64,000 bases of DNA from a virus, in IMG/VR virus record IMGVR_UViG_3300042301_001596, positions 1 through 64,000 of that record. One strand, 5' to 3'. Within the stretch, counting starts at the first letter, position 1, and every line of letters starts with the position of its first letter. The notes below the pieces were generated by a model that saw only the letters and a program-made list of their open reading frames with translations, was not told the DNA's origin and made no database searches. The translations under genes and the position numbers were made by a program. Positions 1,386 through 56,077 of the stretch are shown one piece after another.

Positions 1386-1390
1386 AAATA

Positions 1391-1629: not shown

Positions 1630-1639
1630 ATTTAATAAA

Positions 1640-1843: not shown

Positions 1844-1853
1844 ATTAAATTTT

Positions 1854-2375: not shown

Positions 2376-2387
2376 AAAACTACAAAA

Positions 2388-2945: not shown

Positions 2946-2972
2946 TAATTTTTAAATTAAATAAATAGTAAA

Positions 2973-3266: not shown

Positions 3267-3278
3267 ACCCCAGTAATT

Positions 3279-3494
3279 ATGAAAGTATTAAAAACCTATG
3301 ATGATTTTTTATGGCTTGATGTTACCGATATAGCCAAAAGTTTATGGCAATCTCAAGATTTTGAGTTGTATGCCGTATACGAGGATCATACCGAACACCT
3401 CATAAATACTGAAATGGAATTTGAAGCTGCATTGATGGAGAAATGCATTATTGCCATTGAATTATGTCATTTAAACCAAATTACAAATATTTAA
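3279..3494 (+). CDS. Small acidic hypothetical protein (71 aa)
   Basis: MKVLKTYDDFLWLDVTD..., a compact acidic protein predicted as mixed alpha/beta. It follows the previous gene by 12 bases and precedes the next by 11, so it is part of the same transcript. Not recognised. Confidence 0.6.
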   Translation: MKVLKTYDDFLWLDVTDIAKSLWQSQDFELYAVYEDHTEHLINTEMEFEAALMEKCIIAIELCHLNQITNI

Positions 3495-3505
3495 AACTAA
3501 AAATT

Positions 3506-8893: not shown

Positions 8894-9750
8894 ACGAATA
8901 AATTGGTATAATCGGAGTGTTCACCCCAGTAATTATGAGTTAAAGATAAATTATCTTTGCGATATATTGAATTATGGCTGGTAAAATGTATGCCATGGTT
9001 GATATGGATAGCTTGATTTTCGCAGTTCCATCGGCTTCTATTCATTGTTTGAGTTTCAATCATACCGCTATTAGTACGCAAAGCATTGGGTAAAATGGCT
9101 AAGCAATGCTCAATGGCATCGTCAAATCTCATGGTCATTTGGTGAAACGGCTCATCATTTTGGCCTCTCTCTTGCCACCCATCAATGCAAAGACCTCCGT
9201 AATTCATATTGGTAAGTACGCTGCCTCTATCAAAATCAGGGAAATCAAAGTAACCCTTTGGGTACATTACATCATGCTCTAGGAAAGAAACGTAATCATA
9301 TTCGCCAGTTTCTTTTGCAGAATAAAGGCATTGCATAATTTGGAGCAACTGATTAAGATGCGACTGGGACTGATACCAGCTTCTAACTTGGTAGAATGGG
9401 TTTTCCGGCATAGGCTCCCACATACAAGTTACAATGTCTGCTACTCCATTACTGGCTTGCTTAATTGTATCTAATGACTTGTATATTGATGGCCATATAT
9501 TTTTGTTGTTGTTGTTGGAATAGAATATACCCAATTTTTTACTTTTGGACTTAGGGTATACAAACACACTACCTTCTCTAATGCTGAAGATATTGCCGTC
9601 TATATCCAATTCCAGATATTTAACATGACCAACTGCTGGATCCCCTATAATATCATTATTAGCTCTTACCACGAGCTTATCCGATACTATTTTATCCTTA
9701 ATCAATTGGGTACAATCTTGACCTCCGTATGTTGCTTTATTTATAATCAT
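8890..9750 (-). CDS. Glycosyltransferase with N-terminal DUF3395-like module (286 aa)
   Basis: Two parts are visible. Residues about 1-66 form a beta-rich module with the spaced pattern ATYGGQDCT ... ANNDIIGDP ... GHVKYLELDI ... EG, resembling the DUF3395-like modules found beside sugar-active domains. Residues about 70-286 look like a GT-A glycosyltransferase: LGIFYSNNNN strand at the start and an acidic FLEHDVMYP motif (E158, D160) in the position of the metal-binding DxD. Start at 9750; four-base overlaps with both neighbours. Substrate unknown: host surface glycan, or the virion. The family assignment of the N-terminal module is tentative. Confidence 0.65.
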   Translation of the reverse strand: MIINKATYGGQDCTQLIKDKIVSDKLVVRANNDIIGDPAVGHVKYLELDIDGNIFSIREGSVFVYPKSKSKKLGIFYSNNNNKNIWPSIYKSLDTIKQASNGVADIVTCMWEPMPENPFYQVRSWYQSQSHLNQLLQIMQCLYSAKETGEYDYVSFLEHDVMYPKGYFDFPDFDRGSVLTNMNYGGLCIDGWQERGQNDEPFHQMTMRFDDAIEHCLAILPNALRTNSGMIETQTMNRSRWNCENQAIHINHGIHFTSHNSIYRKDNLSLTHNYWGEHSDYTNLFV

Positions 9751-15367: not shown

Positions 15368-15801
15368 TTTTTGAGCTTTGTATAAATGTAAATAACAAGT
15401 AGGGCAATAAGAATAAATAACAAGAACTTATAAAAGTTATTGGCCATTTTCTTCTTATCTTTTTCAACTATGGTTTTTGTGATTGTTTCTGCCTTTGAAA
15501 TATTGGCAGAATCCTTTTTGGTTAGCTTGGATTCGGATTGCTTCTCGCGGCTGCCAGAAGTCCAAGTTTCTGTATACTTTGGAATGGTTATCATACTATC
15601 TTTAGTTACCCATAAGGTATCGTAGTATGTTATTGTTTTAGTAAAGTATTGTTCTTTTTCTATGACCTTTGTAACGCTGTCATAAAACGTAACTTTCACA
15701 CTATCAATGGATCTGGTTACTGTGCTGTCCATTCTCCTCTCGGTTTTCTTAACCGAAGCGCAGCTACAGAAAAAAATCATTATGATAGCGAGTCTATTCA
15801 T
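15364..15801 (-). CDS. u-spanin-like lipoprotein with C-terminal membrane helix (145 aa)
   Basis: Short N-terminal hydrophobic signal with a lipobox at FFCSCAS (Cys12 or Cys14), a Thr/Ser- and Lys-rich periplasmic segment (about 20-118), and a C-terminal membrane helix (FYKFLLFILIALLVIYIYTKLKK). One chain tied to the outer membrane by lipid and to the inner membrane by a helix is the architecture of unimolecular spanins such as T1 gp11. First gene of the lysis operon. If true, the cassette holds both a one-component and a two-component spanin. Confidence 0.62.
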   Translation of the reverse strand: MNRLAIIMIFFCSCASVKKTERRMDSTVTRSIDSVKVTFYDSVTKVIEKEQYFTKTITYYDTLWVTKDSMITIPKYTETWTSGSREKQSESKLTKKDSANISKAETITKTIVEKDKKKMANNFYKFLLFILIALLVIYIYTKLKK

Positions 15802-15805
15802 CTAT

Positions 15806-15813
15806 CAAAAATA
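15806..15813 (-). promoter_or_regulatory. Possible -7 box before the lysis operon
   Basis: TATTTTTG read leftward (15813-15806) matches TAnnTTTG, but it ends only four bases before the ATG at 15801, which would make the message leaderless, and no -33 box stands at the right distance. Listed as weak. Confidence 0.35.
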
Positions 15814-15849
15814 ACTTTTTTCTGTCAAATTCTGCTAAATTTATATAAA

Positions 15850-16227
15850 TTAATAAGCGTTATATGATTTTTCCTCCACAATGTCGGACTTGTATTTAAT
15901 GTTAATCTCTCTTTTTATGGCTGCTCTTTGGTCATTTAGCCTGTAAACCTGTCTTGCCAAAAAGACAAATAACTTATCAAACTCACTGTCATTTTCGCAA
16001 TCTCGGAGCGAATCCTCTACCACCCATAACTGCCTGTTTATATCCAAAAGCCTATGTGTTAGCTTGTCTGCTGCCAGCTCCTTGAAGTTCTCTTTGATTA
16101 CTTGGTTAATGTACTTCCACTCTTTCTTAATGTTAATCTGCTTTTCCTCGTCTAAAATTTCAAATGATTTGATGGTTAAGATGGTGAACTTGTCGGCTAT
16201 TTCGCCAATGCTTACTTCTATTTTCAT
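15850..16227 (-). CDS. DUF6165 protein (125 aa)
   Basis: KIEVSIGEIADKFTILTIKSFEI at the start, LWVVEDSLRDCE in the middle and NDQRAAIKREIN ... EEKSY at the end give the whole DUF6165 signature. The family occurs next to surface-polysaccharide and glycosyltransferase genes in bacteria and phages; no reaction is known. The start at 16227 is preferred to 16245 because the promoter's -7 box (16250-16243) overlaps the longer version. It lies between the lysis cassette and the rightward glycosylation cassette and is a likely partner of the latter. Confidence 0.85.
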   Translation of the reverse strand: MKIEVSIGEIADKFTILTIKSFEILDEEKQINIKKEWKYINQVIKENFKELAADKLTHRLLDINRQLWVVEDSLRDCENDSEFDKLFVFLARQVYRLNDQRAAIKREINIKYKSDIVEEKSYNAY

Positions 16228-16242
16228 AATAATTATTTTAGG

Positions 16243-16273
16243 CAAAGATATATTTATTTAATTAAATTAATTA
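16243..16273 (-). promoter_or_regulatory. Leftward promoter of the DUF6165 gene
   Basis: TATCTTTG (16250-16243) is a perfect TAnnTTTG, followed 16 bases later by the ATG at 16227. The upstream spacer contains the AATTAATTTAATTAA motif shared with the rightward promoter, so the two divergent promoters overlap almost completely. Confidence 0.7.
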
Positions 16274-16279
16274 CTTTTG
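16249..16279 (+). promoter_or_regulatory. Rightward promoter of the glycosylation cassette
   Basis: TACTTTTG (16272-16279) is a perfect -7 box, preceded by TTAATTAAATTAATT; a second copy of that motif (16281-16295) occupies the leader just before the ATG at 16298. Overlapping divergent promoters here suggest mutual or shared control of DUF6165 and the cassette. Confidence 0.65.
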
Positions 16280-16297
16280 CTTAATTAAATTAATTTT

Positions 16298-17653
16298 ATG
16301 CCAACTAGCTTTCAATTCTTCAAACAAGAGGTAAGGGATTACATAGTAGATAACGTAGACATAAACAAAAAGATATTAGATGTGGGGGCTGGTATTGGCA
16401 CCTATTCTGATATGCTAAAAAACTATGGTTACTACATGGATTGCGTAGAGATATACGAACCTTATGTAGTTAATTATCAATTAGATAAGAAGTACAACAA
16501 TGTATTTATACAAAGCGTAGTTGGTTTCCATTTTGACTATTACGAGTTCATTATCATGGGTGATGTGCTTGAGCATTTATCTGTGGAAGATGCACAAAGT
16601 ATCATCAGAAAGATAGTCCATAGCGGTAAGCAATGTCTGATAGCGGTGCCATATCTTATGGAACAGGGAGAGCATGAAGGTAACATCCATGAAACCCATT
16701 TGCAGCCTGACTTAACTCCGGCAGTCATGGAAACCAGATACCCAGAACTTAGATTACTTTATGCTAACCAGTATTATGGCTACTATGTAAACAGAACCCA
16801 TAAGCATGAGAAAGCCTACCTATTGTACGCTGATGACTCTTATTTTGATTTGGTCCAAGTATGCGCTGAATCTATCCGTAAGTTCAGCAGCCTACCGATA
16901 TTAGTATACATGCTCAACTCTGATAAGAAGATTCCCGACATAGAAGATACCAAAACAATTAGATGGGATTGTGATGTAAAGCACCTGAAACAAAGGTCCG
17001 ACTACATTGATAGATCCAATAAAAGCATCTACAAACTACTAATACAAAGACCTTTAATAACCAAACATGCACTTGAAAACTATGCTGAAACGATTGCGTA
17101 TGTGGATTCTGACTCTGTGGCTAGTCCATTTGTTGACAACATCTTTACTTTCTATAATGAAGAATCTAGTCACCCCTATTTTACAGAAGGTATCTATGAA
17201 TATCTTATGGTCAATGGTAGAGGCGGCGCTGAAAGTAGGGCGGATTTAAGCACTACATTAGAAGCACCAGCCTGTGAGCTATTCAATATAAACCAGTATG
17301 TCCGTAACAGATACAGGCAAACAGGATATTATGTTGCAGGGCAGAACACCATTGAATTTTTAGATGAATGGTTCTGGATGTGTAACCACCCTAAAGTATT
17401 AAAGAACCACAACTATTACGCACCCTTCCATGAAGAAACCATACTTCAAGCCCTTCTGTATAAGCGTATGACATTTTCAGGACTACCATACTGCTACATC
17501 AATGGACTACATAAAGACCTAAAATTTACTGGTCATGATAATTTAATAGGGCCATGGATTAAAGTACCTTCACATAAAGAACATTTACTATTCTATCATG
17601 GAGAAAAGAACATTGAAAAGATTAAAGAATTTATAAACCAACTAAACAAATAA
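16298..17653 (+). CDS. Methyltransferase-glycosyltransferase fusion (451 aa)
   Basis: Residues about 1-160 are a class I SAM-dependent methyltransferase: ILDVGAGIGTY (26-36) is motif I, CVEIYEP (49-55) the acidic second strand, IIMGDVLEHL (85-94) motif IV. Residues about 170-451 look like a GT-A glycosyltransferase of the family that starts AYLLYADDSYFDLV and carries a DxD at YVDSDS (D270, D272), with NGRGG and HEETILQALL later. Such bifunctional proteins assemble and cap or methylate glycans. First gene of a + strand cassette between two leftward blocks. Confidence 0.78.
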   Translation: MPTSFQFFKQEVRDYIVDNVDINKKILDVGAGIGTYSDMLKNYGYYMDCVEIYEPYVVNYQLDKKYNNVFIQSVVGFHFDYYEFIIMGDVLEHLSVEDAQSIIRKIVHSGKQCLIAVPYLMEQGEHEGNIHETHLQPDLTPAVMETRYPELRLLYANQYYGYYVNRTHKHEKAYLLYADDSYFDLVQVCAESIRKFSSLPILVYMLNSDKKIPDIEDTKTIRWDCDVKHLKQRSDYIDRSNKSIYKLLIQRPLITKHALENYAETIAYVDSDSVASPFVDNIFTFYNEESSHPYFTEGIYEYLMVNGRGGAESRADLSTTLEAPACELFNINQYVRNRYRQTGYYVAGQNTIEFLDEWFWMCNHPKVLKNHNYYAPFHEETILQALLYKRMTFSGLPYCYINGLHKDLKFTGHDNLIGPWIKVPSHKEHLLFYHGEKNIEKIKEFINQLNK

Positions 17654-17656
17654 CCT

Positions 17657-17743
17657 ATGAAACAAATAGATGTAATTTTATTCATTATTATTACTTGGAT
17701 AATAGGATTTTTAACAGGATATTTTAAAGCTAAAAACAAATAA
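17657..17743 (+). CDS. 28-aa membrane peptide
   Basis: MKQIDVILFIIITWIIGFLT then GYFKAKNK: one membrane helix and a basic tail. It is flanked by two exact copies of a 17-base sequence (17644-17660 and 17734-17750) spanning the stop-start junctions, which looks like a small duplication or insertion scar. Coding is plausible from context only. Confidence 0.45.
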   Translation: MKQIDVILFIIITWIIGFLTGYFKAKNK

Positions 17744-17746
17744 CCT

Positions 17747-17959
17747 ATGACACCAAAAGAAAAAGCACAAGAATTATTTGATAAAATCTACAATATAAGT
17801 GGCTTAACAAAAGAATCTAAACAAATTTCATTAATAGCAGTAGATGAAATATTAAAAGAATATGCACACGCAGAAAATCATATTGAAGATATTATGGGTA
17901 AAATAAGTATCTATATAAAGTATTGGCAAGAAGTTAAAACAGAAATAGAATTATTATGA
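17747..17959 (+). CDS. Small helical phage protein, MTPKEKA family (70 aa)
   Basis: MTPKEKAQELFDKIYNISGLT..., ending YIKYWQEVKTEIELL. The start is nearly identical in protein and DNA to the gene at 61063 (MTPKEKAEELL), and both end with an aromatic-rich helix. Small proteins with this start are frequent in Bacteroidota phages; function unknown. Overlaps the next gene by four bases. Confidence 0.6.
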   Translation: MTPKEKAQELFDKIYNISGLTKESKQISLIAVDEILKEYAHAENHIEDIMGKISIYIKYWQEVKTEIELL

Positions 17960-20010
17960 GAATATTATTTTTAGCTCCGCATCTTAGCACAGGAGGTTGC
18001 CCCCAATTCATTCTTGGAAGGCTTGGTAGCATGAAGAATCACACTGACAACGAATACTATGTAGTAGAATATCAATGCCATGGATTAGATTATGTGGTAC
18101 AAAGAAACGATATAAAGAACCTAATTGGTAGTAATTTTACTACCCTTTATGAAAATAAAATGATTCTATTTGATGTGATAGATTACTTCCAGCCTGATAT
18201 AATCCATATAGATGAAATGTCTGAAAGATTGGATAGAGAGATGGTAAGGAGGCTTTACAATCCAGATAGAAAGTATCGTATCGTAGAAACCTGCCATGAC
18301 ATCTCGTTTGATCCGAATAGCAAGTTATTTCACCCAGACTTATATTCATTCTGCACTCCGTATCATGAAGAAACTTTTGCTGATTTGGAATCCAAGTATG
18401 TTACAATACTTTATCCAATAGAGGAAATTAATCTTAGTAAATTCAAGACTATCTGGCAAGATGAATTAGGCTTTGATAGAAACAAAAAGCATGTGCTGAA
18501 TGTTGGCTTATGGACTCCGGGGAAGAATCAAGCTGAAGGAATAGAAATAGCCCGTAAATATCCTGATATGATGTTTCACTTTGTAGGCAATCAGGCTGGG
18601 AACTTTAAGCACTACTGGGAACCATTGATGCAGAACTTACCACCAAATGTAAAGGTATGGGGAGAGCGAACAGATATTGATCACTTCATGATAGCATCAG
18701 ATGTATTTATGTTTAATAGCACATGGGAATGTAACCCAATTGTACTTCGTGAAGCCATAAGTTATGGGCTACCTATTGTTGCGCGGAATCTTCCGCAGTA
18801 TGCCGGAATGTATGATAACTACACATACTCAATAGATGCTGATTTAGAATTGATAGCTAAGTACAATAATATTACATACGATATACCAAAAGACAATACT
18901 ACAGGTGATTTTGCAAGAGCGCATCAAGTAGCTTATGAAAAGATATTAGAACTCCCAGCACAAGTACAAAAGGTCCGCATCTTACAAAACTTCATTAATC
19001 ACCCTTTCCTTGAAATAAAAGGAGAAAGCGATAGTGAATTTGATGTTAGATTTTATGATGAGAATGATGTATGCCAATACCAAAGTGTAATCAAGAGTAA
19101 TAGCTGGGTAAGGCTCAATAGACAATACTATACTAAATGGAAAACGTATGTATATCAGGACGGAGAATTAATCTATGAAAACGTATTGGATTTGCATAGT
19201 AAAAGGGTATTCATATCAATAGAAAGTAGCGCGCTTGGAGATACTATTGCATGGGTTCCGTATGCTTTAGAGTTCCAAAAGAAGCATGGTTGCAAGGTTG
19301 TGTTGTCCACTTTTCATAATAAAATACTGGACTACCCTGAACTTGAATTAGTAGAACCCGGCAGCTCTGTTAATTGTTATGCCATGTATAAGATTGGTTG
19401 GCACTATGATACCAATAGAGAACCAGAACTGCCAAACACAATACCACTACAAAAGGCAGCGTGTAATATTTTGGGCTTAAAATACACTGAAATTCGCCCC
19501 AAATTATTTACCAAGAGAGATTGCCCAGAGCATGATAAATACATCACTATTGCCACTAATTCTACCACAGGATGCAAGTTTTGGGTAAGGGAAGAATGGC
19601 AGAAGCTAATTAACCATTATACCGAACAAGGCTATAAAGTATACAATGTTTCCAAAGAAGTAAATCCATTTGATAATTGCCCACAGATACCAGATACATC
19701 AATGGAATCAACAATGGATTGGATATACCATAGCACATTCTTCGTAGGACTCAGCAGTGGTTTATCGTGGCTCGCGTGGAGTTTAGGTAAGCAAGTTGTA
19801 CTAATAAGCAACTTTACTGAATTTGACCATGAGTTCCTTACCAACTGCATACGAATCACAAATGAAAAAGTATGTCATGGATGCTGGAACAAACCAGAAA
19901 TAAAATTTGATAAAGGCAATTGGAATTGGTGTCCTTACAATAAGAACTTTGAGTGCCAGACTTCAATCACCGCAGAGATGGTAATAAATAGAATTAGTCG
20001 TTACTTATAA
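17956..20010 (+). CDS. GT4 glycosyltransferase fused to AAH/TibC-like O-heptosyltransferase (684 aa)
   Basis: Residues about 1-340 are a GT-B glycosyltransferase of the GT4 type: LFLAPHLSTGGCPQF near the start, VGLWTPGKNQAEG and the donor-site run STWECNPIVLREAISYGLP. Residues about 345-410 form a linker with beta-strands. Residues about 414-684 match the autotransporter strand-loop-strand O-heptosyltransferases (AAH, TibC): FISIESSALGDTIAW, YKIGWHYD, PLQKAACNILGLKYTEIRP, VGLSSGLSWLAWSL, and the Cys finger C640-x2-C643-x15-C659-x7-C667, which in TibC binds iron. TibC-type enzymes move heptose from ADP-heptose to protein Ser. Donor and acceptor here are unknown; virion proteins with Thr/Ser repeats are attractive acceptors. 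Confidence 0.85.
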   Translation: MRILFLAPHLSTGGCPQFILGRLGSMKNHTDNEYYVVEYQCHGLDYVVQRNDIKNLIGSNFTTLYENKMILFDVIDYFQPDIIHIDEMSERLDREMVRRLYNPDRKYRIVETCHDISFDPNSKLFHPDLYSFCTPYHEETFADLESKYVTILYPIEEINLSKFKTIWQDELGFDRNKKHVLNVGLWTPGKNQAEGIEIARKYPDMMFHFVGNQAGNFKHYWEPLMQNLPPNVKVWGERTDIDHFMIASDVFMFNSTWECNPIVLREAISYGLPIVARNLPQYAGMYDNYTYSIDADLELIAKYNNITYDIPKDNTTGDFARAHQVAYEKILELPAQVQKVRILQNFINHPFLEIKGESDSEFDVRFYDENDVCQYQSVIKSNSWVRLNRQYYTKWKTYVYQDGELIYENVLDLHSKRVFISIESSALGDTIAWVPYALEFQKKHGCKVVLSTFHNKILDYPELELVEPGSSVNCYAMYKIGWHYDTNREPELPNTIPLQKAACNILGLKYTEIRPKLFTKRDCPEHDKYITIATNSTTGCKFWVREEWQKLINHYTEQGYKVYNVSKEVNPFDNCPQIPDTSMESTMDWIYHSTFFVGLSSGLSWLAWSLGKQVVLISNFTEFDHEFLTNCIRITNEKVCHGCWNKPEIKFDKGNWNWCPYNKNFECQTSITAEMVINRISRYL

Positions 20011-20016
20011 TAAAAA

Positions 20017-20040
20017 AAGCAGGTTCGCAGCCTGCTTAAT
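20017..20040. terminator. Bidirectional terminator between convergent units
   Basis: AAGCAGG (20018-20024) pairs with CCTGCTT (20032-20038) around a seven-base loop. On the - strand the stem is followed by a run of seven T, on the + strand by AATTTATTA. It ends the rightward glycosylation cassette and the leftward virion operon. Confidence 0.8.
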
Positions 20041-20067
20041 TTATTATTAAACCACTAACCTTTAAAA

Positions 20068-20409
20068 CTATTTGTCAAATTGATTGCTTAAATCAACAAT
20101 TGTTTTTGATACTACCACCCACTTCATTTCTTTGAAGAGTTCTTTTAACTTGGTAAAATCAGCATCTTCTAATTCTAATGTGGCTTTTCTTTCAAGAAAT
20201 TCATCTTTAAAATCCTCTGGATTAATTTCAAATAGGTCTTTGTGCTTTTCAACTTCACCTAATAAACGAAGTCTTTTAATCATCTCATCAACATTTAATC
20301 CTCCTTGAGTTGGATTATTAATTGATGATTTCAATAAACTGTAAGTGGTAAAAAAGATTTTTTTGCCATCAATGTTTTCCTTAGATACTGATAATTCAAT
20401 TGATTTCAT
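20068..20409 (-). CDS. Hypothetical protein (113 aa)
   Basis: MKSIELSVSKENIDGKKIFF..., a soluble helix-rich protein with Lys/Glu-rich middle (NPEDFKDEFLERKATLELED). Driven by its own clear promoter and ended by the terminator at 20017, it forms a single-gene unit. Not recognised; small protein regulators of late or tail genes are often found here, but that is a guess. Confidence 0.65.
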   Translation of the reverse strand: MKSIELSVSKENIDGKKIFFTTYSLLKSSINNPTQGGLNVDEMIKRLRLLGEVEKHKDLFEINPEDFKDEFLERKATLELEDADFTKLKELFKEMKWVVVSKTIVDLSNQFDK

Positions 20410-20426
20410 AATGTATTTATTTTTAG

Positions 20427-20457
20427 CAAAGCTAATTAAATTAATTTAATTAAAAAA
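20427..20457 (-). promoter_or_regulatory. Promoter, TTTT-N19-TAGCTTTG
   Basis: Read leftward: an eight-T run gives TTTT at 20457-20454, the 19-base spacer is AATTAAATTAATTTAAT-like, and TAGCTTTG (20434-20427) is a perfect -7 box. The ATG lies 17 bases further. This is one of the clearest examples of the phage's recurring promoter design. Confidence 0.75.
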
Positions 20458-20462
20458 AATAA

Positions 20463-20873
20463 TTATGGGGCTTCTGTTGTAGAAGTTGTTGTATCAGGGG
20501 CTTCTGTTGTAGTAGTTGTAGTAGGAGCCTCTGTAGTGGTAGTCGTAGTGGTACTTGGCACAGGAGGAATATACTCGCCTGTAATTGTCAATTTAAGTTG
20601 TGTTGCTGCCCAATTATATATCCAATTATTTGCATCTGATGAAGTGTCCCAATCTAGGTAATCTTGTCCTGATATATTCAATGAACCATTTACCAAAGTA
20701 TTAAACATAGGGTAAGGAGCTGGAGTAATTGGGCTTGTAATAACCTCATTTAATTGATATTGAAAAGTTGCATTTGTAGATAAGTTATCAAAAGAAGATG
20801 TTAATACAAATACTGTTGCTTCTTTTTCTTCGCCATTTTGCCAAGACAAAATTGGTTCAATTGTTTTTGCCAT
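20463..20873 (-). CDS. Virion-associated protein with C-terminal Thr-rich repeats (136 aa)
   Basis: Residues 1-100 form a beta-rich domain (ATVFVLTSSFDNLSTNATFQYQL). From about 103 the chain is three repeats of (P)TTTTTT-EAP. The same style of tract occurs in the 1618-aa stabilization protein and in the 118-aa protein at 55721, both likely virion parts, so this is probably a structural or decoration protein. Poly-Thr with Pro is a classic mucin-like O-glycosylation site. Last gene before the promoter of 20409. Confidence 0.6.
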   Translation of the reverse strand: MAKTIEPILSWQNGEEKEATVFVLTSSFDNLSTNATFQYQLNEVITSPITPAPYPMFNTLVNGSLNISGQDYLDWDTSSDANNWIYNWAATQLKLTITGEYIPPVPSTTTTTTTEAPTTTTTTEAPDTTTSTTEAP

Positions 20874-20879
20874 TTTATT

Positions 20880-21062
20880 TTATTTTATTTTATAAATATA
20901 CTTATTATATCCCATTGATATATTTTGTTTGAAATATACAAACAATAATATAGCTAGTCCTACTATTAATAGGCTATTATCAACATTAGAAAAGTTTTGA
21001 ACTGGTTCAATAACTAATTCAAGATTATTTAGGTTAACTGCTGTGTCTGTACTTGTTTCCAT
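20880..21062 (-). CDS. Small single-pass membrane protein (60 aa)
   Basis: METSTDTAVNLNNLELVIEP..., an acidic N-terminal half, then one membrane helix (LLIVGLAILLFVYF, about 31-44) and a Tyr/Lys-rich tail. N-out, C-in topology is predicted. It follows a clear promoter at 21078-21085. Function unknown. Confidence 0.55.
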   Translation of the reverse strand: METSTDTAVNLNNLELVIEPVQNFSNVDNSLLIVGLAILLFVYFKQNISMGYNKYIYKIK

Positions 21063-21077
21063 TTTTATAAATTTTTA

Positions 21078-21085
21078 CAAAGATA
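21078..21085 (-). promoter_or_regulatory. -7 box TATCTTTG
   Basis: Perfect TAnnTTTG read leftward (21085-21078), 15 bases before the ATG at 21062, in the gap after the LamG gene. The -33 region is AT-rich without a TTTG. It would give the two genes downstream (membrane protein and Thr-rich protein) expression apart from the tail fibre. Confidence 0.6.
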
Positions 21086-21100
21086 TAATATAAATTGGGC

Positions 21101-21973
21101 TTACAAACCAAATCTTGCTTTAGTAGCATTATAATTTTGTAGAACCTCCGCAGCAGTTAATTCTCTGTTATATACATGTAATAATGCAATTTGCTGGTTT
21201 GCTCTAAAATCAAAATTCGCTGTACACCAACCTGCTGTAGAAGCTCTTAAAACAGGAGTATTGGTAGGAGTTGATGTTGCAATAAGATTCCCGTTTCCAT
21301 ATACCCTCATTCTTGATGAAGTTCCGGGGAGCCATGTACCAACCATATATAACCAAACATTATTGCTAGGGAATGTTCCACCTCTTGCTAAAGGCTGGGT
21401 AATAGCAAGTGTAACTGGGTCTACACCAACCCCCACTGACATCCACTGAGATGTACTAGGTGTTGATTTCCCAATAAATAAACTCCAACCATTTTGTTGA
21501 AACTGACCAAGATCTTGTCCTCTTTCAAACATAGTATAACCAGTACGAGTTTCTTGCACGTTAAACCATCCTCCAAATGAAAAGGCACTATCATCAGCTC
21601 CTTTTGCTCCAGCCGAATTTGGGAATGATATAAATCCAGTATTACCAGTTAATGCCATAAATTTTGGCCCAGTAGAATTATAAGCTACTGCTCCAGCAAA
21701 GGTGGCATTATATCCATTTCCACTTAAATCAAACCATGTAGTTCCAGTTCCCGGATAAGATTTAGGACTACTAGCATCCACATATATATTTAGGCCACTT
21801 GTAATGATAGGGATTGCGCTATAACCATAGAATTCACTAATAGCATCAGGACTAGAAAATCCAGCATTAGCACTAAGTTGTCTTAGGCTATAAGTTGAAG
21901 GGAACCCCCAAACATCAACCTGTTCATTTCTAATTTGTGATATACTCAGTGGTCCACTAACTGGTAAGGGCAT
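21101..21973 (-). CDS. LamG/concanavalin-like tail-associated protein (290 aa)
   Basis: Residues 1-50 form an attachment segment (SGPLSISQIRNEQV ... ISEFYGYSA) seen at the start of many phage tail-tip proteins. Residues about 55-290 are a LamG/ConA-like jelly roll: LNIYVDASSPKSYPGTGTTW, WFDLSGNGYNAT, SFGGWFN, and the typical ending ALLHVYNRELTAAEVLQNYNATKARFG. Such domains bind glycans, so a receptor-binding or adhesive role at the virion surface is likely. Its start overlaps the tail-fibre stop by 17 bases. Confidence 0.8.
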   Translation of the reverse strand: MPLPVSGPLSISQIRNEQVDVWGFPSTYSLRQLSANAGFSSPDAISEFYGYSAIPIITSGLNIYVDASSPKSYPGTGTTWFDLSGNGYNATFAGAVAYNSTGPKFMALTGNTGFISFPNSAGAKGADDSAFSFGGWFNVQETRTGYTMFERGQDLGQFQQNGWSLFIGKSTPSTSQWMSVGVGVDPVTLAITQPLARGGTFPSNNVWLYMVGTWLPGTSSRMRVYGNGNLIATSTPTNTPVLRASTAGWCTANFDFRANQQIALLHVYNRELTAAEVLQNYNATKARFGL

Positions 21974-24900
21974 TGATTATAGATTTAAGTTCTTCAATTT
22001 GTTTCTGCTGCTCTTTAAATGCTTCAATGAATAATCCTGCAAAGTTACCATATTTAACACCATACTCGTCTATATCCTTTGCATACGAAACAGCTTCTGG
22101 TAACACTTGATTTACTTCTTGTGCAATAACCCCAAGCTGCCTTCCTTTTTCTTCTTCACCAATTTTATCATAAAATACACCACGAAGATTTGTCACTTTT
22201 TCAAGAGCGTTATCTATAGTGATTATGTTATTTTTCTTACGAGCATCAGAGAAAGCAACCACATCGCCAGTTGCAAAAATAGCTCCCTCAACATATAATC
22301 TATAAGATGTTGAGTTAGTTGATGTACCTATTGACAATCTACCTGTTCCATATAGAGAATAGAATATCCAACCACCAGCATAACCTATATCATGCAAACC
22401 TATATCCGTAGACACTCTACCCATTAAATTAAATTGTGTCCCAACACCATACCCTGCCCAACCATTTCTGCCGCTACCATGTGTTGCTACATTACCATAA
22501 GTATTACCTTCTGCATCTGGAGAACGAAGTCCATAACCATATGAATTAAAATATAATCCTCCAGTTCCATTTACATAAAACCAATCACTTGTGCTTACTG
22601 AACCACTTACATTTAATGGTCCACTTGACCAACTCCCATATAACTGACCACCACCAGATGTTGTACGCACAGCCCAAGATCCACCATTTAAAAGACCAAA
22701 ATTACCACCAGTTTCTCCATATACATAACCTACAACTGCTGAATCATAATTAGATCTAAACTGCAGTCCAAAAGTAGATGTACCAGCACCAGTTATAGAC
22801 CAATAACTAGTACTATCTGCGTAAAAATGGCTTCCATAAGTTTGGCTGTATAATCCTAGTCTTCCAGTGACTCTATACCAACTATTGTTGTATATACCAT
22901 TAGCATCATTTATGCTATTATTATTTAAATACATAGTACCATACAACCAATTCGTACCTTGACTATAAATACCTGCTGGATGATATGTTGCTTCACCTGT
23001 TCCTCCTACGTTTGCGTTGCCACGATAAGCAGCAGACCGAACGTTACCACTTGTATCAATAGTAAACGACCATGTATTACTATAACCTACGTTATCAAAC
23101 CTTACTGTATTTACATTAGTTGTCCAGTTACCTCCAGATCCTGTTGTTCTAGTTCCCCAACTTCCAACCGAGCCAGCAGTTCCAGCCATGTACATAAAAC
23201 CAGATGCATGAGCGTCTCCGTTTACACTAAGCCTTACATCTGCAGTTACACCTAAGCCAAGATTTCCTGCAATTTGCATGTTGCCAGTTGTTGAGTTCAA
23301 TGCAGCAATCGGAGCAACACCAATTCTACCCCAAGTAAATCCTCTACCTGTACTTCCAGCATCCATTTGCATTTTGATGGAATAATCAATAACGGGTCCA
23401 TATTGGTATAAACTTCCAACACCCATTGATATTTTATATTCATCGGATGACCAAAATCTAACTCCATTCCCATCACCGGGGGTTACATTATAAAAAGGAT
23501 TTACATTAGAACCATTAGGGGCGCTACCTGCTGATCCTGTTATATTAATCCCCCATGTACCACTTGCTCCGCTACCTGTTAAACTTGGAGCGTAACTTGT
23601 ATAATTACCACTATGCAAAAATTGATACCATGTAGCGTTCCAACTACTATTAATACCATTTCTTAAAGCTAATCCGGGTAACCCTGAAGCGTTCACTCCA
23701 CTCCAATTACAAAAAGCTAATTGATATGAAGAATCTCCTGTACTTGCAGATGTACCATCCCAAGGAGAGTATGTCATTACACCAGCATAGTTACCAGTTG
23801 CACCAGTTACACTACCAGCGGTTGCAAAATCATATCTTACAGACCTTGGGTTTGTTGTTGGTAAAGCAAATGTGTTAGGGTTTCTACTACCATCAGGAGA
23901 AGCTACAAAAGTAGTAGTTGTTGCAGATGTAGCATTACCTGTAATACTAATACCCCAAGTTCCACTAGCTCCCCCACCTGTTAGTGTTGGAGCGTAAGAG
24001 TTAAAGTTAGCTGCGTTAAGAACTTGATTACCATTTTGAGTAATTGCTCCAATAAAGTTTGCATTACCAGAAGCATCAACTGTACCTACACTACCTCCAG
24101 CACCATTACAAAATATTACACCTCCTGTTCCATGATCAAAGTTAAAGAACAATGCATTTGTTTTTGCACTGATGATACTATTACCAGTAGCTGGATTAGT
24201 TCTAAAATCTCCATAAGCTGTTGAACCATCACTGCCTCCAGTATAAAATCTAAAAGCATTTGCTAATATTGTAGTTCCAGTTGAGGTAAGTGTACTATTA
24301 ATTGTTAATGGTACATTAAAGTTAGCATTAGCCTCATCTATAGTTAATCCTGTTGTCCAAGTAACTGTACCACCAGAAGGAGATGTTCTAAATTCATGTC
24401 TACCATTACCTAAATGTTGAATATAAGCCATGGATTTTCTAGTAGGGTCATCTTGTGACCATGCTCCACTAAAAAGAGCATTAGAAGTAAAGTTTAAACC
24501 ATTTGAATCAGAACCTAGTCTAGCAGGAGCAATAACTCCTGTTGTTACGAGCCTCCATTTTTCCCATGTTGAGGTTGAAACAATATTACCACCAGTATTT
24601 AAAGTAATAGCTGTTGATGTTGATGCACCACGACCTGTTACTGTAGCTAGTGTTTCACTACCTGCTGTACCTGTAATATTAATACCCCAAGTACCTGAAG
24701 CATTAGCACCAGTTGTTGATGGAGCGCCTATAGTATTATAAGAAAGAGTTCTAGGAACAGAACCATTATATGTTGTTCCTGAAGCGTCCCCTGCTCCACC
24801 ACTATTCATAGTTAAAACATTGGAGAAAGCTTGGGTTGCTCCTGAGCTTCCAGATGTGCCACTCGTTCCAGAAGTTCCGGAAGTACCAGACGTGCCGGTA

Positions 24901-26861
24901 GTTCCACTTGTACCACGAGAACCTGAAGTTCCACTTGAACCAGAAGTTCCTGTAGTTCCAGAAGTTCCACTTGTACCTGTTGAACCGCTAGTACCAGATG
25001 TCCCACCTGTACCATCGGTTCCACTTGTTCCAGAAGTTCCGCTTGAACCTGAAACACCACTTGAACCAGTTGTTCCACTTGTACCACTTGTTCCACTTGT
25101 ACCTCCTGTACCATCAGTTCCACTTGTTCCAGAAGTACCGCTAGTCGCAGAAGTTCCAGAAGTTCCAGAAGTACCAGAAGTTCCATCTGTACCACTAACT
25201 CCACTTACACCGCTTGTTCCAGAAGTACCTGTTGAGCCACTAGTACCAGAAGTTCCATTAGTACCCGAAGTACCGCTCGTTCCAGAAGTACCACTTGGTG
25301 GATTAAATGTTGTTTGAGCGTATGAGTAGTTACTTGTACCTTCTGTATAAAAAGTTACATTTACACTTGAACCACCGTCATGCTGAGTATATATTTGACA
25401 ATAAAGTCTGTCTGTTGCGTTTAATGCTGTTTGACCTAAAAATAAATCAGTAAAAAATTCTTTAATGACACCGTTAATCATGTTTTCGGTATCAAGGTTG
25501 GTAGTTCCTAATAAAGTAGAAACACCACCTGTTGTATATTTATAAAGCTCAATGTCAACAGCTAAATTTCCGTTACCATTTATAGCAAAGTGTGTTACCC
25601 ATGCCCAGTTCCCCGAAGGAATACTTGTTAAATTAGGAACACCACTATCTGTCGCATAAGTTGCAAATAAAGTTCTTGTAGAACCCGATACGCTTCTTGT
25701 TACAGCTTGTTGACCTGTAATTGTACCATTAGGTGACCATTGTTTATATGTCGGACTACCAAAAGCAGTATTCGTATTTAAAGATTGATTTAGATAGTAT
25801 ACAAGTCCCCCTGCAACACCATTCATACCGTTTACCCCTGAAGTACCTGCTGTTCCGCTAGTCCCTGATGTACCTGTCGTACCTGAAGTACCCGTTATAC
25901 CACTAGAACCCGAAGTACCAGATGTACCCGTTGTTCCACTTGTACCGCTTGTACCAGATGTAGCTGAAGTTCCTGATGTTCCCGAAGTTCCACCGGTACC
26001 ATCCGTACCGCTTGTTCCACTAGAGCCAGACGTAGCTGAAGTTCCAGAAGTTCCGGTTGTACCAGAAGTACCAGAAGTACCGCTTGTTCCACCTGTACCA
26101 TCAGTACCAGAAGTGCCACTAGAACCTGAAGTAGCAGAAGTACCCGAAGTACCTGTTGTACCCGAAGTGCCACTGCTTCCGCTTGTTCCAGAGCTACCAC
26201 TAGTTCCTGTTGTTCCTGAAGTTCCGCTTGTTGCAGACGTACCTGAAGTTCCACTAGTACCACTCGTTCCATCAGTTCCTGATGTAGCAGATGTACCAGA
26301 CGTACCAGAAGTTCCAGAGCTACCAGACGTACCTGAAGTACCACTAGTTCCACCCGTACCATCAGTTCCTGATGTACCAGTCGTTCCCGAAGTTCCTGAA
26401 GTAGACGAACTACCTGAAGATCCACTTGTTCCAGCTGTCGCTGAAGTTCCAGAGCTACCGCTTGTACCAGTTGTACCACTAGTACCCGAAGTGCCTGTAG
26501 TACCTGATGTACCAGTAGTGCCGCTTGTACCCGAAGTACCAGAAGTTCCACTAGTTCCAGAAGTTCCACCAGAACCATCTGTTCCAGACGTACCTGAAGT
26601 ACCAGTAGTTCCAGAAGTACCAGTAGTACCACTTGTTCCGGCAGTAGCTGAAGTTCCAGATGTACCAGAAGTTCCAGACGTACCAGAAGTTCCACTACTA
26701 CCAGTAGTACCTGATGTACCACTAGTGCCACTTGTTCCACTGCTTCCAGATGTACCTATAGTTCCTGAAGTATCAGCAGCGACAATACCATCTATTGCAA
26801 CGAGAATACCATTTTCATCCCTTAATTTTAAATCTCCAGAAATTAGATTTTGTATTGCCAC
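21957..26861 (-). CDS. Tail fibre: collagen-like Gly-Thr-Ser repeats and C-terminal S74 chaperone (1634 aa)
   Basis: N-terminus (1-30, IQNLISGDLKLRDENG) resembles fibre attachment segments. Residues about 32-345 and 520-710 are near-perfect Gly-X-Y repeats made of GTS, GTT, GSS and GTD triplets, i.e. collagen-like. Between them is a beta domain (about 350-515). The rest is beta-structure of a fibre shaft and tip. The last ~105 residues are an intramolecular chaperone of the peptidase S74 type: FSDARKKNNI (catalytic Ser), GVIAQEVNQVLPEAV, GLFIEAFKEQQKQIEEL; these domains trimerise the fibre and then cut themselves off. The host receptor is probably bound by the tip. Confidence 0.92.
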   Translation of the reverse strand: MAIQNLISGDLKLRDENGILVAIDGIVAADTSGTIGTSGSSGTSGTSGTSGTTGSSGTSGTSGTSGTSGTSATAGTSGTTGTSGTTGTSGTSGTDGSGGTSGTSGTSGTSGTSGTTGTSGTTGTSGTSGTTGTSGSSGTSATAGTSGSSGSSSTSGTSGTTGTSGTDGTGGTSGTSGTSGSSGTSGTSGTSATSGTDGTSGTSGTSGTSATSGTSGTTGTSGSSGTSGSSGTSGTTGTSGTSATSGSSGTSGTDGTGGTSGTSGTSGTTGTSGTSATSGSSGTSGTDGTGGTSGTSGTSATSGTSGTSGTTGTSGTSGSSGITGTSGTTGTSGTSGTAGTSGVNGMNGVAGGLVYYLNQSLNTNTAFGSPTYKQWSPNGTITGQQAVTRSVSGSTRTLFATYATDSGVPNLTSIPSGNWAWVTHFAINGNGNLAVDIELYKYTTGGVSTLLGTTNLDTENMINGVIKEFFTDLFLGQTALNATDRLYCQIYTQHDGGSSVNVTFYTEGTSNYSYAQTTFNPPSGTSGTSGTSGTNGTSGTSGSTGTSGTSGVSGVSGTDGTSGTSGTSGTSATSGTSGTSGTDGTGGTSGTSGTSGTTGSSGVSGSSGTSGTSGTDGTGGTSGTSGSTGTSGTSGTTGTSGSSGTSGSRGTSGTTGTSGTSGTSGTSGTSGSSGATQAFSNVLTMNSGGAGDASGTTYNGSVPRTLSYNTIGAPSTTGANASGTWGINITGTAGSETLATVTGRGASTSTAITLNTGGNIVSTSTWEKWRLVTTGVIAPARLGSDSNGLNFTSNALFSGAWSQDDPTRKSMAYIQHLGNGRHEFRTSPSGGTVTWTTGLTIDEANANFNVPLTINSTLTSTGTTILANAFRFYTGGSDGSTAYGDFRTNPATGNSIISAKTNALFFNFDHGTGGVIFCNGAGGSVGTVDASGNANFIGAITQNGNQVLNAANFNSYAPTLTGGGASGTWGISITGNATSATTTTFVASPDGSRNPNTFALPTTNPRSVRYDFATAGSVTGATGNYAGVMTYSPWDGTSASTGDSSYQLAFCNWSGVNASGLPGLALRNGINSSWNATWYQFLHSGNYTSYAPSLTGSGASGTWGINITGSAGSAPNGSNVNPFYNVTPGDGNGVRFWSSDEYKISMGVGSLYQYGPVIDYSIKMQMDAGSTGRGFTWGRIGVAPIAALNSTTGNMQIAGNLGLGVTADVRLSVNGDAHASGFMYMAGTAGSVGSWGTRTTGSGGNWTTNVNTVRFDNVGYSNTWSFTIDTSGNVRSAAYRGNANVGGTGEATYHPAGIYSQGTNWLYGTMYLNNNSINDANGIYNNSWYRVTGRLGLYSQTYGSHFYADSTSYWSITGAGTSTFGLQFRSNYDSAVVGYVYGETGGNFGLLNGGSWAVRTTSGGGQLYGSWSSGPLNVSGSVSTSDWFYVNGTGGLYFNSYGYGLRSPDAEGNTYGNVATHGSGRNGWAGYGVGTQFNLMGRVSTDIGLHDIGYAGGWIFYSLYGTGRLSIGTSTNSTSYRLYVEGAIFATGDVVAFSDARKKNNIITIDNALEKVTNLRGVFYDKIGEEEKGRQLGVIAQEVNQVLPEAVSYAKDIDEYGVKYGNFAGLFIEAFKEQQKQIEELKSIINALTS
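24830..25300 (-). repeat. Gly-Thr-Ser coding repeat, block 2
   Basis: Second collagen-like block (about 470 bases) of the tail-fibre gene, with the same triplets and occasional GTD, GVS and GSR variants, separated from block 1 by a beta-domain coding stretch. Two blocks flanking one domain suggest a segmented, perhaps hinged, rod. Confidence 0.85.
25826..26768 (-). repeat. Long Gly-Thr-Ser coding repeat, block 1
   Basis: About 940 bases of nine-base-like units coding GTSGTSGTTGSS... Codons vary at third positions (GGT/GGA, ACT/ACA), so the protein repeat is kept while the DNA repeat is blurred, a sign of selection on the protein. On the other strand it gives spurious Val-Pro-Glu frames. Confidence 0.85.
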
Positions 26862-28139: not shown

Positions 28140-31100
28140 TTATTCCTGCTCTTGTTCTTCTTCCTGCTCTAACCCTAATACCTCTTCCCAAGTTAATTTT
28201 AAATCTTCTTTTAAATATTCTTCTGGTCCTGGCTTTTCACCAAATAACTTCTTTTTAATTTTTTTGGTTGCAAGAGTTTTTATTTTATTTATCGCACTTA
28301 TTAAATCCTCCTTTGAAACCTCTGAGATTGGCTTCATTACCGTAGTTTCATCTACCAAAACAGGAACGCCTTTTTCATATATTTTGGTAATATAATCGCC
28401 AACCAATTCATCTCTCTCTTTTACAAACTCATCAAACTCTTTGCTTGTTATGGGTTTACCAGCTGGATCTTCATTATAGTTAACCATGAGATTCTTATCC
28501 ATTGTACTAGAAACCTGAGTATCATCTAATAAAGATTGTAAATCTCTTTTATCGTACATTTTTTCATTTACCACCTTGATACCATTAAAAGCAGGTATTG
28601 CTCTTTTTAAAATAGCATCTGTGCCATCTATCTTAATTTGTTCTCTTAATTCATTCAAAAATAATGGCTCAAATAAATCACTAGCAATCTGCCCTTTATT
28701 ATCCAATGTATACTTTTTACCTTGAAAATTCTCTGAAAATGCTAAATCAGTCGCAACACCAACAAATGGAGATGCTTTACCTCTAAAGAATTTATATGTT
28801 TCTGCTTTAGCATCAAATTTAACAGGCTTCCCGTTAATTGTTTTTCCTCTCATTGTCATCATTGCCAAGTATCTCACATAAGGAGTAAACCTACCAAATA
28901 TATTGTAAGACCATCCATTTTTTGTATCTCTTACTTGACCAAATGTTACGCTCGTTGGATCACTATCTACTTCTTTATCTGGATCAAGTGCCATTGCACC
29001 CATAATCAACGCTCCCATAGACAAACCTGCTGCCGTTTCCTTTAAGGCATATTTTCTAACTTCTGGAGTCATTGCCCTATAGTACCCTTTATTTTTTCCA
29101 AGGTTAGCAACATCTCCTAGTCCCATTATATTCATTGATGAGGACATAAGTCCCGGCGCCCAAAATAATGCAGAAATTATAGGCTCTGATCTTTTTATTA
29201 ATTCAGATTGATGTATTTTACCTCTACCAGTAATGTTATTTGCATAACTAGCTAAGCTTTTAAAATCTTCAAGATTATTATCTAACGTCTTACCTTTGGC
29301 TATTAATTTTTCTGCTCCTCTTAAAAATATCTGTAATCTAAATTCATTACTAAATGCGGCAAAAACTCTCTCAAATGGAGAAGATATATCTGATGCTTTG
29401 TATGTTTTTTTGGTGATTTCGCCCGGATATGTTTCCCATTTTCCTTCTTTATTTTGAACAGAATATGGTTCTCCTTTTTTAGATACAGTAAACTTTATTT
29501 TATCTAACCAGTTTTGCCCACCAAATTGTTCATTTGTAATTGATTCTCTGAATCCTTTTGGATCAATAATATCCAATCCAGACCTTTTAATCATATCAAT
29601 CAAAGGCTTATTCTCAAAAATAGAAACAAGCCTTCTTCTAAAATTTTTTTCACTGAAAGCAACATCCAATTGCGCACCTAATCCTTTTGCTGTAGCCTTT
29701 ATATTCATTGGGTTCAAAACAGCAAGTCCATTCTGGATAAACACAACAGAGTTATCAAAGCCTGCTTTTAATGCTTTTTGTGTATTAATTCCTTCTTTAA
29801 TAAATTTACCACTTACAGCAAAAGCTTTTTGAAAACCCTTTTTAGAATCCATTTCTTCCTTAGCCAACTTTTGAATATACTCAAACTTTAAATTATCTAG
29901 CTTATCCCTAGCATCTAATAGTTTATTAAATAATTCTGGATTCTTTTTCCTTAATTCAGTATCATCTAATATATTTAGACGCTTTGGCTTTTCTGAATAA
30001 TCCCCTTCTTTAATTCTTCTTTCAAATTCAGCTATTTGTGATTCAATATTTTTTATAGAACCCTCTAACTTTTTCTTACCTTCATTATAATAACCAGCTT
30101 CTTCTCTAGCTTTTACTAATTGCTTGTTTAAATCAGCTATTCTTTGATTCTTCTTAATCTCCTCTCTTTCTGTTTTTGGTTTACCTGCTTTTACATCTTC
30201 AATTTCATTAAGAATTTTAGCTTCCTTCTTTAAGCCTTCTAGTTTTGTTTGTATTTCTGATTTAGTTTCTCTTGGCTTACTATATTTGCCAGCAATCATA
30301 TCCTGCACATCCTTTTTAGTAAGTCCGGCTAAGTCAGATTCCAAAAAACTATGCACTTTATTAACTATATCTTCAAGTTTTACTTCTTCAAGTTTTTCAA
30401 TTGCTTCTCCGACATACAATCTAGCTAATTTTGCAACATCTGGAGCTATTTCAATAAACTTGTCAACATATGGTATAGGAACTGCTGTTAATTTATTTGA
30501 CCTTAACTTTTTTCTAATATCATCAATTACTTTACTTCTTTCAGCAGCGTAATCTATCTTTTTCTTTGGAGCTTCACCTAATCTAATAGTTTTCTTTGTT
30601 TCTTCTACTTCCCTATTGGTTAATTCTTTAGCAGCAGCTTCATCTACCTTAGCTCTTAACTCCTCTACTTCCTTTTCTAATTTTGATATTTTCTCAAAAT
30701 CAGCTTTTGCTTCTGCTTTTTGTTTTTCAGTCAATACTTCTACCCCATTCTTATCCATCTTATCAATGTAATAATCAGAGATAGTTGACATTGGCGGAGG
30801 CATACCCTTTCTAGCCTGCAATTGCCTAGCTGCATCAGTACCAATCAAGTCATTAATTTGAACTAATCTTCTTTGCTTAGAAAGCAATTCATCAGTTGGG
30901 TTTTCTGCTATCTTAGCATCTAATTCAAGATTCAAAATCTTTACAACTTCTTGGCCAAAAGAGGTGGCGGCCTTTTTAGATTCTATGTCGCTCAATAATT
31001 TATTTACATCACCTCCAGCCTTCAACCACTCTTCAGCTTTTCTATTTGCCTCAATATTGGTAACTACATCTGGATCATAACTTTTCATGCCAAGCATCTC

Positions 31101-31253
31101 TCTTCTTATCTGATTAGCTGCTTTGTTAATGCCTCTAACTTCTGATTTCGCCCCAGCCAATTCTTCAGAAAAAGATTCTAAGTTTTTAGCTAAGTATTCT
31201 TTAAGCTGCGCTTCGTTGTACTCAATTCCGTCTATAATGTAAATGCAACCCAT
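28140..31253 (-). CDS. Large polyvalent/ejection-type virion protein (1037 aa)
   Basis: Residues about 1-500 are mostly charged coiled coil (SKLEKEVEELRAKVDEAA; RIADLNKQLVKAREEAG). The C-terminal half has the run ASYANNITGRGKI, LFWAPGLMSSSMNIM and a hydrophobic stretch (LSMGALIMGAMAL) followed by FGRFTPYVRYLAMM, similar to terminal domains of large phage 'polyvalent' proteins carried in the virion. An acidic tail (EQEEEQEQE) ends it. Likely an internal protein delivered with the DNA or forming an ejection conduit; the exact family is unsure. Confidence 0.6.
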   Translation of the reverse strand: MGCIYIIDGIEYNEAQLKEYLAKNLESFSEELAGAKSEVRGINKAANQIRREMLGMKSYDPDVVTNIEANRKAEEWLKAGGDVNKLLSDIESKKAATSFGQEVVKILNLELDAKIAENPTDELLSKQRRLVQINDLIGTDAARQLQARKGMPPPMSTISDYYIDKMDKNGVEVLTEKQKAEAKADFEKISKLEKEVEELRAKVDEAAAKELTNREVEETKKTIRLGEAPKKKIDYAAERSKVIDDIRKKLRSNKLTAVPIPYVDKFIEIAPDVAKLARLYVGEAIEKLEEVKLEDIVNKVHSFLESDLAGLTKKDVQDMIAGKYSKPRETKSEIQTKLEGLKKEAKILNEIEDVKAGKPKTEREEIKKNQRIADLNKQLVKAREEAGYYNEGKKKLEGSIKNIESQIAEFERRIKEGDYSEKPKRLNILDDTELRKKNPELFNKLLDARDKLDNLKFEYIQKLAKEEMDSKKGFQKAFAVSGKFIKEGINTQKALKAGFDNSVVFIQNGLAVLNPMNIKATAKGLGAQLDVAFSEKNFRRRLVSIFENKPLIDMIKRSGLDIIDPKGFRESITNEQFGGQNWLDKIKFTVSKKGEPYSVQNKEGKWETYPGEITKKTYKASDISSPFERVFAAFSNEFRLQIFLRGAEKLIAKGKTLDNNLEDFKSLASYANNITGRGKIHQSELIKRSEPIISALFWAPGLMSSSMNIMGLGDVANLGKNKGYYRAMTPEVRKYALKETAAGLSMGALIMGAMALDPDKEVDSDPTSVTFGQVRDTKNGWSYNIFGRFTPYVRYLAMMTMRGKTINGKPVKFDAKAETYKFFRGKASPFVGVATDLAFSENFQGKKYTLDNKGQIASDLFEPLFLNELREQIKIDGTDAILKRAIPAFNGIKVVNEKMYDKRDLQSLLDDTQVSSTMDKNLMVNYNEDPAGKPITSKEFDEFVKERDELVGDYITKIYEKGVPVLVDETTVMKPISEVSKEDLISAINKIKTLATKKIKKKLFGEKPGPEEYLKEDLKLTWEEVLGLEQEEEQEQE

Positions 31254-55720: not shown

Positions 55721-56077
55721 ATGGCAAATCATGTATCGGTTTATGTTTATCGTAGAAATCAATACGATTTAACGAACCCAAATGGAACACCTGCAACAAA
55801 TGGTGTATTATTCACTTTACCAACTGCTAACTTACAGGTTCAACCTTCTACAGTTGTGGCAAATGGTGTACAAATGAACTCATTAATTCTTATGTACCCA
55901 AGTGGCCTTAATCAACCAGCTGAAAAATTATACAGTAACGCAACTGTTGCTGGTTTAATTGCAGCTATTAATGGAAATGGTATTCAAACTACAACAACAA
56001 CAACAACAGTAGCACCGACCACCACCACTACCACTACAGCGGCTCCTACAACCACTACTACAACAACAGCACCTTAA
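55721..56077 (+). CDS. Putative virion decoration protein with Thr-rich tail (118 aa)
   Basis: Residues 1-85 form a compact domain: VSVYVYRRNQYDLTNPNGTPATNGVLF ... VVANGVQMNSLILMYPSGLNQ ... LYSNATVAGLIAAIN. Residues about 88-118 are three TTTTTTT-xAP units. The domain is about half identical to the next gene's product, which lacks the Thr tail. Private promoter, A-rich leader and terminator indicate high expression, as for an abundant capsid or tail decoration protein. No enzymatic motif. Confidence 0.65.
   Translation: MANHVSVYVYRRNQYDLTNPNGTPATNGVLFTLPTANLQVQPSTVVANGVQMNSLILMYPSGLNQPAEKLYSNATVAGLIAAINGNGIQTTTTTTTVAPTTTTTTTAAPTTTTTTTAP

Follow-up and report, generated by a model that had tools for sequence, protein, structure and literature searches.

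The window (the whole stretch of DNA analysed here, 64,000 nucleotides, positions 1 to 64,000 of IMG/VR virus record IMGVR_UViG_3300042301_001596) encodes a putative 684-residue glycosyltransferase, with a methyltransferase/glycosyltransferase gene upstream of it and a collagen-like tail fibre, convergent with it, about 2 kb downstream (Table 1). The joining of a GT4 enzyme and a TibC-like protein O-glycosyltransferase in one chain, which the first-pass annotation had proposed, is borne out by profiles, PDB matches and modelled fold. Residues 165–283 match Pfam Glycos_transf_1 (PF00534, E = 1.5e-12), E258 and E266 of the E-x7-E motif occupy conserved columns among relatives, and the corresponding half of the AlphaFold2 model (mean pLDDT 89 for the 684-residue chain) retrieves GT4 enzymes, for example BshA, in Foldseek; the N-terminal half has both the GT-B fold and the E-x7-E motif by which GT4 members are recognized. 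In the C-terminal half, residues 516–628 match Pfam Glyco_transf_9, and residues 360–682 match NCBIfam TIGR04414 (hepto_Aah_TibC) with 226.8 bits, above the curated cut-off of 200 bits and in agreement with the earlier family assignment; the AAH/TibC-proper sequences tested score 578–660 bits. TibC (4RB4/4RAP, E = 3e-41) was the sole match in a PDB sequence search, and the PHROGs match (phrog_2170) spans the GT4 part only, leaving the TibC-like half uncovered.

Table 1 Features of the window discussed in the text
Feature	Position	Strand	Basis
Partner gene, 451 aa: SAM methyltransferase-like (~aa 1–165) and GT-A-fold glycosyltransferase (~aa 170–451, DSD 270–272)	16298..17653	+	
GT4 + TibC-like protein O-glycosyltransferase, 684 aa (putative)	17956..20010	+	Open frame, profiles, PDB match, AlphaFold2 model
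GT4 domain, ~aa 1–335; E-x7-E motif E258/E266, K190	17956..18960	+	Pfam PF00534, conserved columns, Foldseek
TibC-like domain, aa 341–684: N-terminal β-strands matching TibC barrel, then GT-B catalytic part (D429, T537, K541, W605)	18976..20007	+	
Cysteine finger C640, C643, C659, C667	19873..19956	+	Alignment with TibC cysteines 339, 342, 358, 370
Candidate acceptor 2: small protein ending in a mucin-like tail (TTTTTTEAP)	20463..20873	-	
Candidate acceptor: collagen-like tail fibre, 1634 aa, C-terminal Peptidase_S74 chaperone domain	21957..26861	-	PF01391, PF13884, PHROGs tail fibre, linkage
Fibre Gly-Thr-Ser block 1, aa 33–353	25803..26765	-	
Fibre Gly-Thr-Ser block 2, aa 524–676	24834..25292	-	
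118-aa protein with Thr-rich tail, candidate acceptor of the first-pass annotation	55721..56077	+	

The fibre matches both PF01391 (Collagen, E = 9.4e-47) and PF13884 (Peptidase_S74), and PHROGs classes it as a tail fibre. Its Gly-X-Y runs comprise 438 residues, of which 261 are serine or threonine and none is proline; pooled across the viral loci, the triplet positions are Gly, Thr (66%) or Ser (18%), and Ser (67%) or Thr (13%). Elsewhere in the structural region, two large proteins of 1037 aa (28140–31253) and 1177 aa (31754–35287) are without a PHROGs or Pfam match.

Shared and divergent features of the TibC-like domain

The model superposes on TibC (4RAP) with a TM-score of 0.81–0.83 (normalised by TibC) over ~370 columns, including the N-terminal β-barrel typical of AAH/TibC, whose strands lie at residues 341–410. 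The expected superposition on TibC thus holds for the fold and, by alignment, for the cysteines, but not for the adenine-contacting Arg286, whose place is taken by Thr586. Likewise, the ‘full AAH/TibC pattern’ credited to this domain in the first-pass annotation stands for the barrel, the four finger cysteines and the Asp/Thr/Lys/Trp set, but not for the thumb hairpin, which is short, or for Arg286. Alignment pairs D429 with Asp110, the catalytic base in TibC (PMC4358343), and T537, K541 and W605 with Thr226, Lys230 and Trp305. The cysteine finger is present as described, its residues aligning with C339, C342, C358 and C370 as putative equivalents in the iron finger of TibC, and all four are kept in 79 of 79 sequences that are complete at the C-terminal end; the x7 spacing before the last cysteine is a local shortening, most relatives having x11 as in TibC. 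Ser600 aligns with Pro300 of TibC, a place at which AAH also has serine, and AAH accepts both heptose epimers (PMC4358343). The domain is TibC-like in fold and probably in its chemistry as well.

The departures concern two elements that are reported as conserved in the AAH/TibC family and functionally needed (PMC4358343). The thumb β-hairpin, which closes the TibC dodecamer (PMC4358343), has 20 residues in the window enzyme versus 29–30 in nearly all AAH/TibC-proper sequences, so that the full dodecamer-type thumb is lacking; F265 of TibC falls in an alignment gap; across the wider phage and Gly-Thr-Ser (GTS)-linked clade, thumb lengths are mostly 19–26 residues. Arg286 contacts the adenine and confers ADP specificity, and the R286A exchange abolishes or strongly reduces TibC activity (PMC4358343); this arginine is present in nearly all AAH/TibC-proper rows and is threonine in the window enzyme and its subfamily. 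The donor is therefore in doubt, and heptose is not to be presumed. A tree of 120 domains, built by a quick method with SH-aLRT support, separates 49 rows (all phage domains together with the bacterial ones beside GTS repeats) from 71 rows (TibC and AAH/TibC proper) by a branch with 100% support. Given this split, the short thumb and the lost arginine, we do not file the window enzyme as an AAH/TibC heptosyltransferase in the strict sense. It shares with that group (BAHT; TIGR04414; 4RAP, 4RB4) the GT-B fold, N-terminal barrel, catalytic Asp, Thr/Lys/Trp residues and four-Cys finger, but differs in its shortened thumb, its replaced Arg286, its fusion to GT4 (and, in relatives, to methyltransferase and GT-A domains as well) and its neighbour, a collagen-like fibre instead of an AIDA-type autotransporter.

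The TIGR04414 cut-off also admits other members of the GTS-linked clade (227–320 bits for L428, L430, L436, L444, L082, L288 and the window), and the family name autotransporter O-heptosyltransferase probably mislabels this whole clade. One Thioalkalivibrio MAG (L446) carries two tandem TibC-like genes (2–1072 and 1111–4026), the first of which aligns without the fourth finger cysteine.

The partner gene and fusions in viral relatives

A scan of viral contigs yielded 196 relatives, 80 of which were kept as near full-length matches to the query, contig-end truncations aside; the fusion of GT4 and TibC-like domains is conserved in these 80 viral loci. The model of the partner gene product (pLDDT 91) finds methyltransferases in Foldseek and, with modest TM-scores, UGGT, glycogenin and LARGE1. 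Its D270-S-D272 supplies invariant Asp columns, giving the GT-A fold its DxD motif, and one relative matches Glyco_transf_8; the domain is described here as GT8-like, with its assignment to GT8 itself tentative. Mycobacteriophages have weak relatives of the methyltransferase domain.

The partner gene is fused, in whole or in part, ahead of the GT4–TibC-like chain in 43 of these 80 loci, yielding proteins of up to about 950–1,180 residues, which places it in the same pathway as the 684-residue enzyme. The enzyme is thus not on its own: the two transferases form one chain, and a methyltransferase and GT-A gene also belongs to the system. Other viral loci have an adjoining FkbM-type methyltransferase, or an extra DXD sugar-transferase domain in front. 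Together, the fusions suggest that a short glycan, which may be methylated, is assembled step by step. The isolate terminases closest to that of the window, at ~28% identity, belong to Flavobacterium and Cellulophaga phages.

Association with Gly-Thr-Ser repeats in phages and bacteria

Of the 37 enzyme loci whose downstream sequence extends for 7 kb or more, 35 have a GTS fibre there, versus 6 of 51 loci upstream; after dereplication at 80% identity, the counts are 19/19 and 2/16 (p = 5e-8), and a GTS run of any kind occurs in 1 of 80 random viral loci. The terminase clade of the window was unsuitable as a negative control, 17 of its 20 long contigs having the enzyme (the three without it are a 59.9-kb assembly with an inverted terminase pair and two ~44-kb contigs), and GTS-pattern and random contigs were therefore compared instead. 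A GTS DNA pattern picked out 38 contigs of 40 kb or more, 18 of which carry a relative of the enzyme, versus 0 of 27 random contigs (p = 9e-6; 8e-4 against the 15 random contigs that are themselves at least 40 kb). These significance values are inflated by relatedness, and some kinship remains in the counts. The carriers are not all of one backbone: in most carriers other than the window, its terminase has short matches at 22–25% or none. Both Microcystis phage Mel-JY01 and a 735-kb metagenomic phage also pair the enzyme with GTS repeats. In the latter (L504, LR756501.1 98000–140000, minus strand), a 2816-residue open frame contains 2115 residues of GTS-type repeats. Record IMGVR_UViG_3300032323_002596 (L100/L101) contains two terminase copies facing opposite ways, which probably reflects faulty assembly.

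The association is not symmetrical. No TibC-like gene was found in 20 of the 38 GTS contigs, some of which are perhaps fragments, and a TIGR04414 search added none; the repeats of these contigs, expected to be richer in proline or shorter in their runs, showed no useful difference from the others. One 636-kb phage has a TibC-like domain and no GTS match. An exclusive tie between enzyme and repeat is doubtful for these reasons. Two further loci (L005 and L034) have the enzyme, and the sequence available downstream of it shows no GTS run; in L034, a fibre of at least 2163 residues with SGGxxNTASG-type repeats (15465–21956, minus strand) stands in place of the GTS fibre.

For bacteria, scanned with one genome per species, 80 loci were obtained, 24 in the clade of the phage domains and 56 in AAH/TibC proper. 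A GTS or Gly-Ser-Ser (GSS) repeat ORF lies within 6 kb in 15 of the 24 and in 0 of the 56 (p = 2e-10, loci not dereplicated); within this count, at least L425, with a fibre-like ORF of 871 aa, and L445 could be phage sequence assembled into MAGs, and the repeats are called less firmly in L426 and L435. A repeat gene sits directly upstream of the TibC-like gene in Methylobacter luteus, Methylobacter sp. BlB1 and a Methylococcaceae MAG; its product has an N-terminus resembling a signal peptide, and the neighbours resemble ordinary chromosomal genes. AIDA-type autotransporters adjoin the enzyme gene in the three AAH/TibC-proper loci tested, and the substrate context thus tracks the enzyme clade. 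In two gammaproteobacterial GTS/GSS loci, a second gene of ~276–280 codons (L430, 5135–5965; L436, 5069–5911) directly precedes the TibC-like gene. The HldE kinase-domain profile TIGR02198, considered as a clue to the sugar nucleotide, was above cut-off in 10 of 14 clade genomes, but gave a weak signal in all control genomes and does not bear on the host of the phage; it was set aside.

Proposed glycosylation of the fibre and competing explanations

We consider it probable, at roughly two chances in three, that this gene forms the centre of an assembly line for protein O-glycosylation, encoded by the phage and with the phage's own collagen-like fibre as its main substrate. This reading draws on the computed domain identities, fold and intact catalytic residues of the enzyme, on the conserved fusions, and on the GTS link in viruses and bacteria; we infer from them the Ser/Thr acceptor, the order of sugars and the methyl cap. 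The TibC-like domain would transfer a first sugar from a nucleotide-sugar to serine or threonine in the Gly-Thr-Ser (or Gly-Ser-Ser) triplets, either ahead of fibre folding or while it proceeds; the fused GT4 domain would follow with a second sugar and the upstream gene's GT-A domain, often in the same chain, with a third, and the partner methyltransferase would cap or mark the glycan. The tail fibre would then contain a proline-free Gly-X-Y rod densely covered with sugars. What the first sugar is and what the glycan does physically are matters of speculation; most likely, the sugars would take over the role of hydroxyproline in making the rod stiffer or more stable, and would shield it against proteases or unspecific binding.

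The earlier proposal that virion proteins are the targets and receive more than one sugar is retained as the most likely one. The particular acceptor named there, the Thr-rich tail of the 55721 product, gives way to the GTS fibre, to which the statistical link runs across unrelated phage backbones and bacterial chromosomes. In its wider form, the alternative is an AAH/TibC-type heptosyltransferase acting on the TTTTTTEAP and TTTTTTTAP tails of small virion proteins (20463–20873 and 55721–56077), with GT4 extending the heptose. Such tails do exist in the window, and Ser600 is AAH-like, but a T-run ORF lies downstream of the enzyme in 32 of 81 loci, a less consistent linkage than that of the GTS repeats, bacterial members of the clade accompany GTS/GSS repeats, and Arg286 and the full thumb are missing, which makes this alternative unlikely. 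Nor does hitchhiking, by which two functionally unrelated genes are both common in one aquatic phage population, account well for the data: phages of one clade share both genes by descent, and the GTS contigs without the enzyme fit such an origin, but the pairing recurs on different backbones and in very different phages, and accompanies bacterial chromosomal TibC-like genes while being absent from AAH/TibC-proper loci. We regard it as very unlikely.

Two other explanations place the acceptor outside the virion proteins. Modification of host surface glycans or proteins during infection, for receptor masking or serotype change, would be in keeping with the GT4 domain, as GT4 enzymes mostly make surface glycans, and with phage glycosyltransferases of such roles mentioned in general terms in a review (PMC12619734). 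It is decidedly unlikely here, with the genes sitting among structural genes and adjoining the fibre, a strong and position-specific link to the fibre repeat, and no lipid-carrier or membrane gene recognised beside the enzyme genes. Glycosylation of phage DNA is exceedingly improbable: the same review refers to virus-encoded glycosyltransferases that hypermodify DNA, but the enzyme has the sequence, fold and Cys finger of a protein glycosyltransferase, and bacterial clade members adjoin repeat proteins of secreted appearance.

Glycosylation of the GTS fibre has partial parallels. In Riftia cuticle collagen, as cited in PMC6953826, the triple helix relies on glycosylated threonine instead of hydroxyproline; with almost no proline in the phage repeats, this precedent makes a sugar-stabilised GTS rod physically plausible, by analogy only, Riftia collagen being an animal protein with other sugars and enzymes. 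Mycobacteriophage glycosyltransferases act on virion proteins (Freeman et al. 2023, as cited in PMC12619734), but the acceptors given there are the C-termini of capsid and tail-tube subunits, the candidate here being a GTS fibre tied to the enzyme by genomic linkage; no mycobacteriophage record matched in the TibC-like search. Collagen-like proteins of E. coli prophages (PMC3368898) are likewise phage-encoded, and the abstract of that paper names no dedicated glycosyltransferase. A literature search, thin in its coverage of subscription journals, found no description of a phage TibC-type enzyme or of GTS-fibre glycosylation.

GTS collagen-like fibres are readily met among contigs of uncultured phages. 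To the question of how a proline-free Gly-X-Y rod coheres, a dedicated enzyme tied to the repeats in unrelated phages and on bacterial chromosomes offers a testable answer, and it would extend phage virion glycosylation from mycobacteriophages to aquatic phages through a different enzyme class. A broader generalisation, which we advance tentatively and rate a little below even, is that reduced-thumb TibC-like enzymes, alone in bacteria and within multi-enzyme chains (methyltransferase, GT-A, GT4, TibC-like) in phages, decorate proline-free (Gly-Thr-Ser)n rods, the sugar replacing hydroxyproline as triple-helix stabiliser. If true, this would be a widespread, so far undescribed pathway of prokaryotic and viral collagen O-glycosylation. 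Mel-JY01, sequenced and with a named host, and the cultured Methylobacter luteus make GTS glycosylation testable. In the Mel-JY01 record (L082, PP395634.1), an 805-aa GTS-rich ORF (635–3052, plus strand) upstream of the 1227-aa GT4 and TibC-like protein is unannotated, an antisense CDS (739–2298, minus strand) being annotated instead, and a further GTS ORF lies at 9152–9658.
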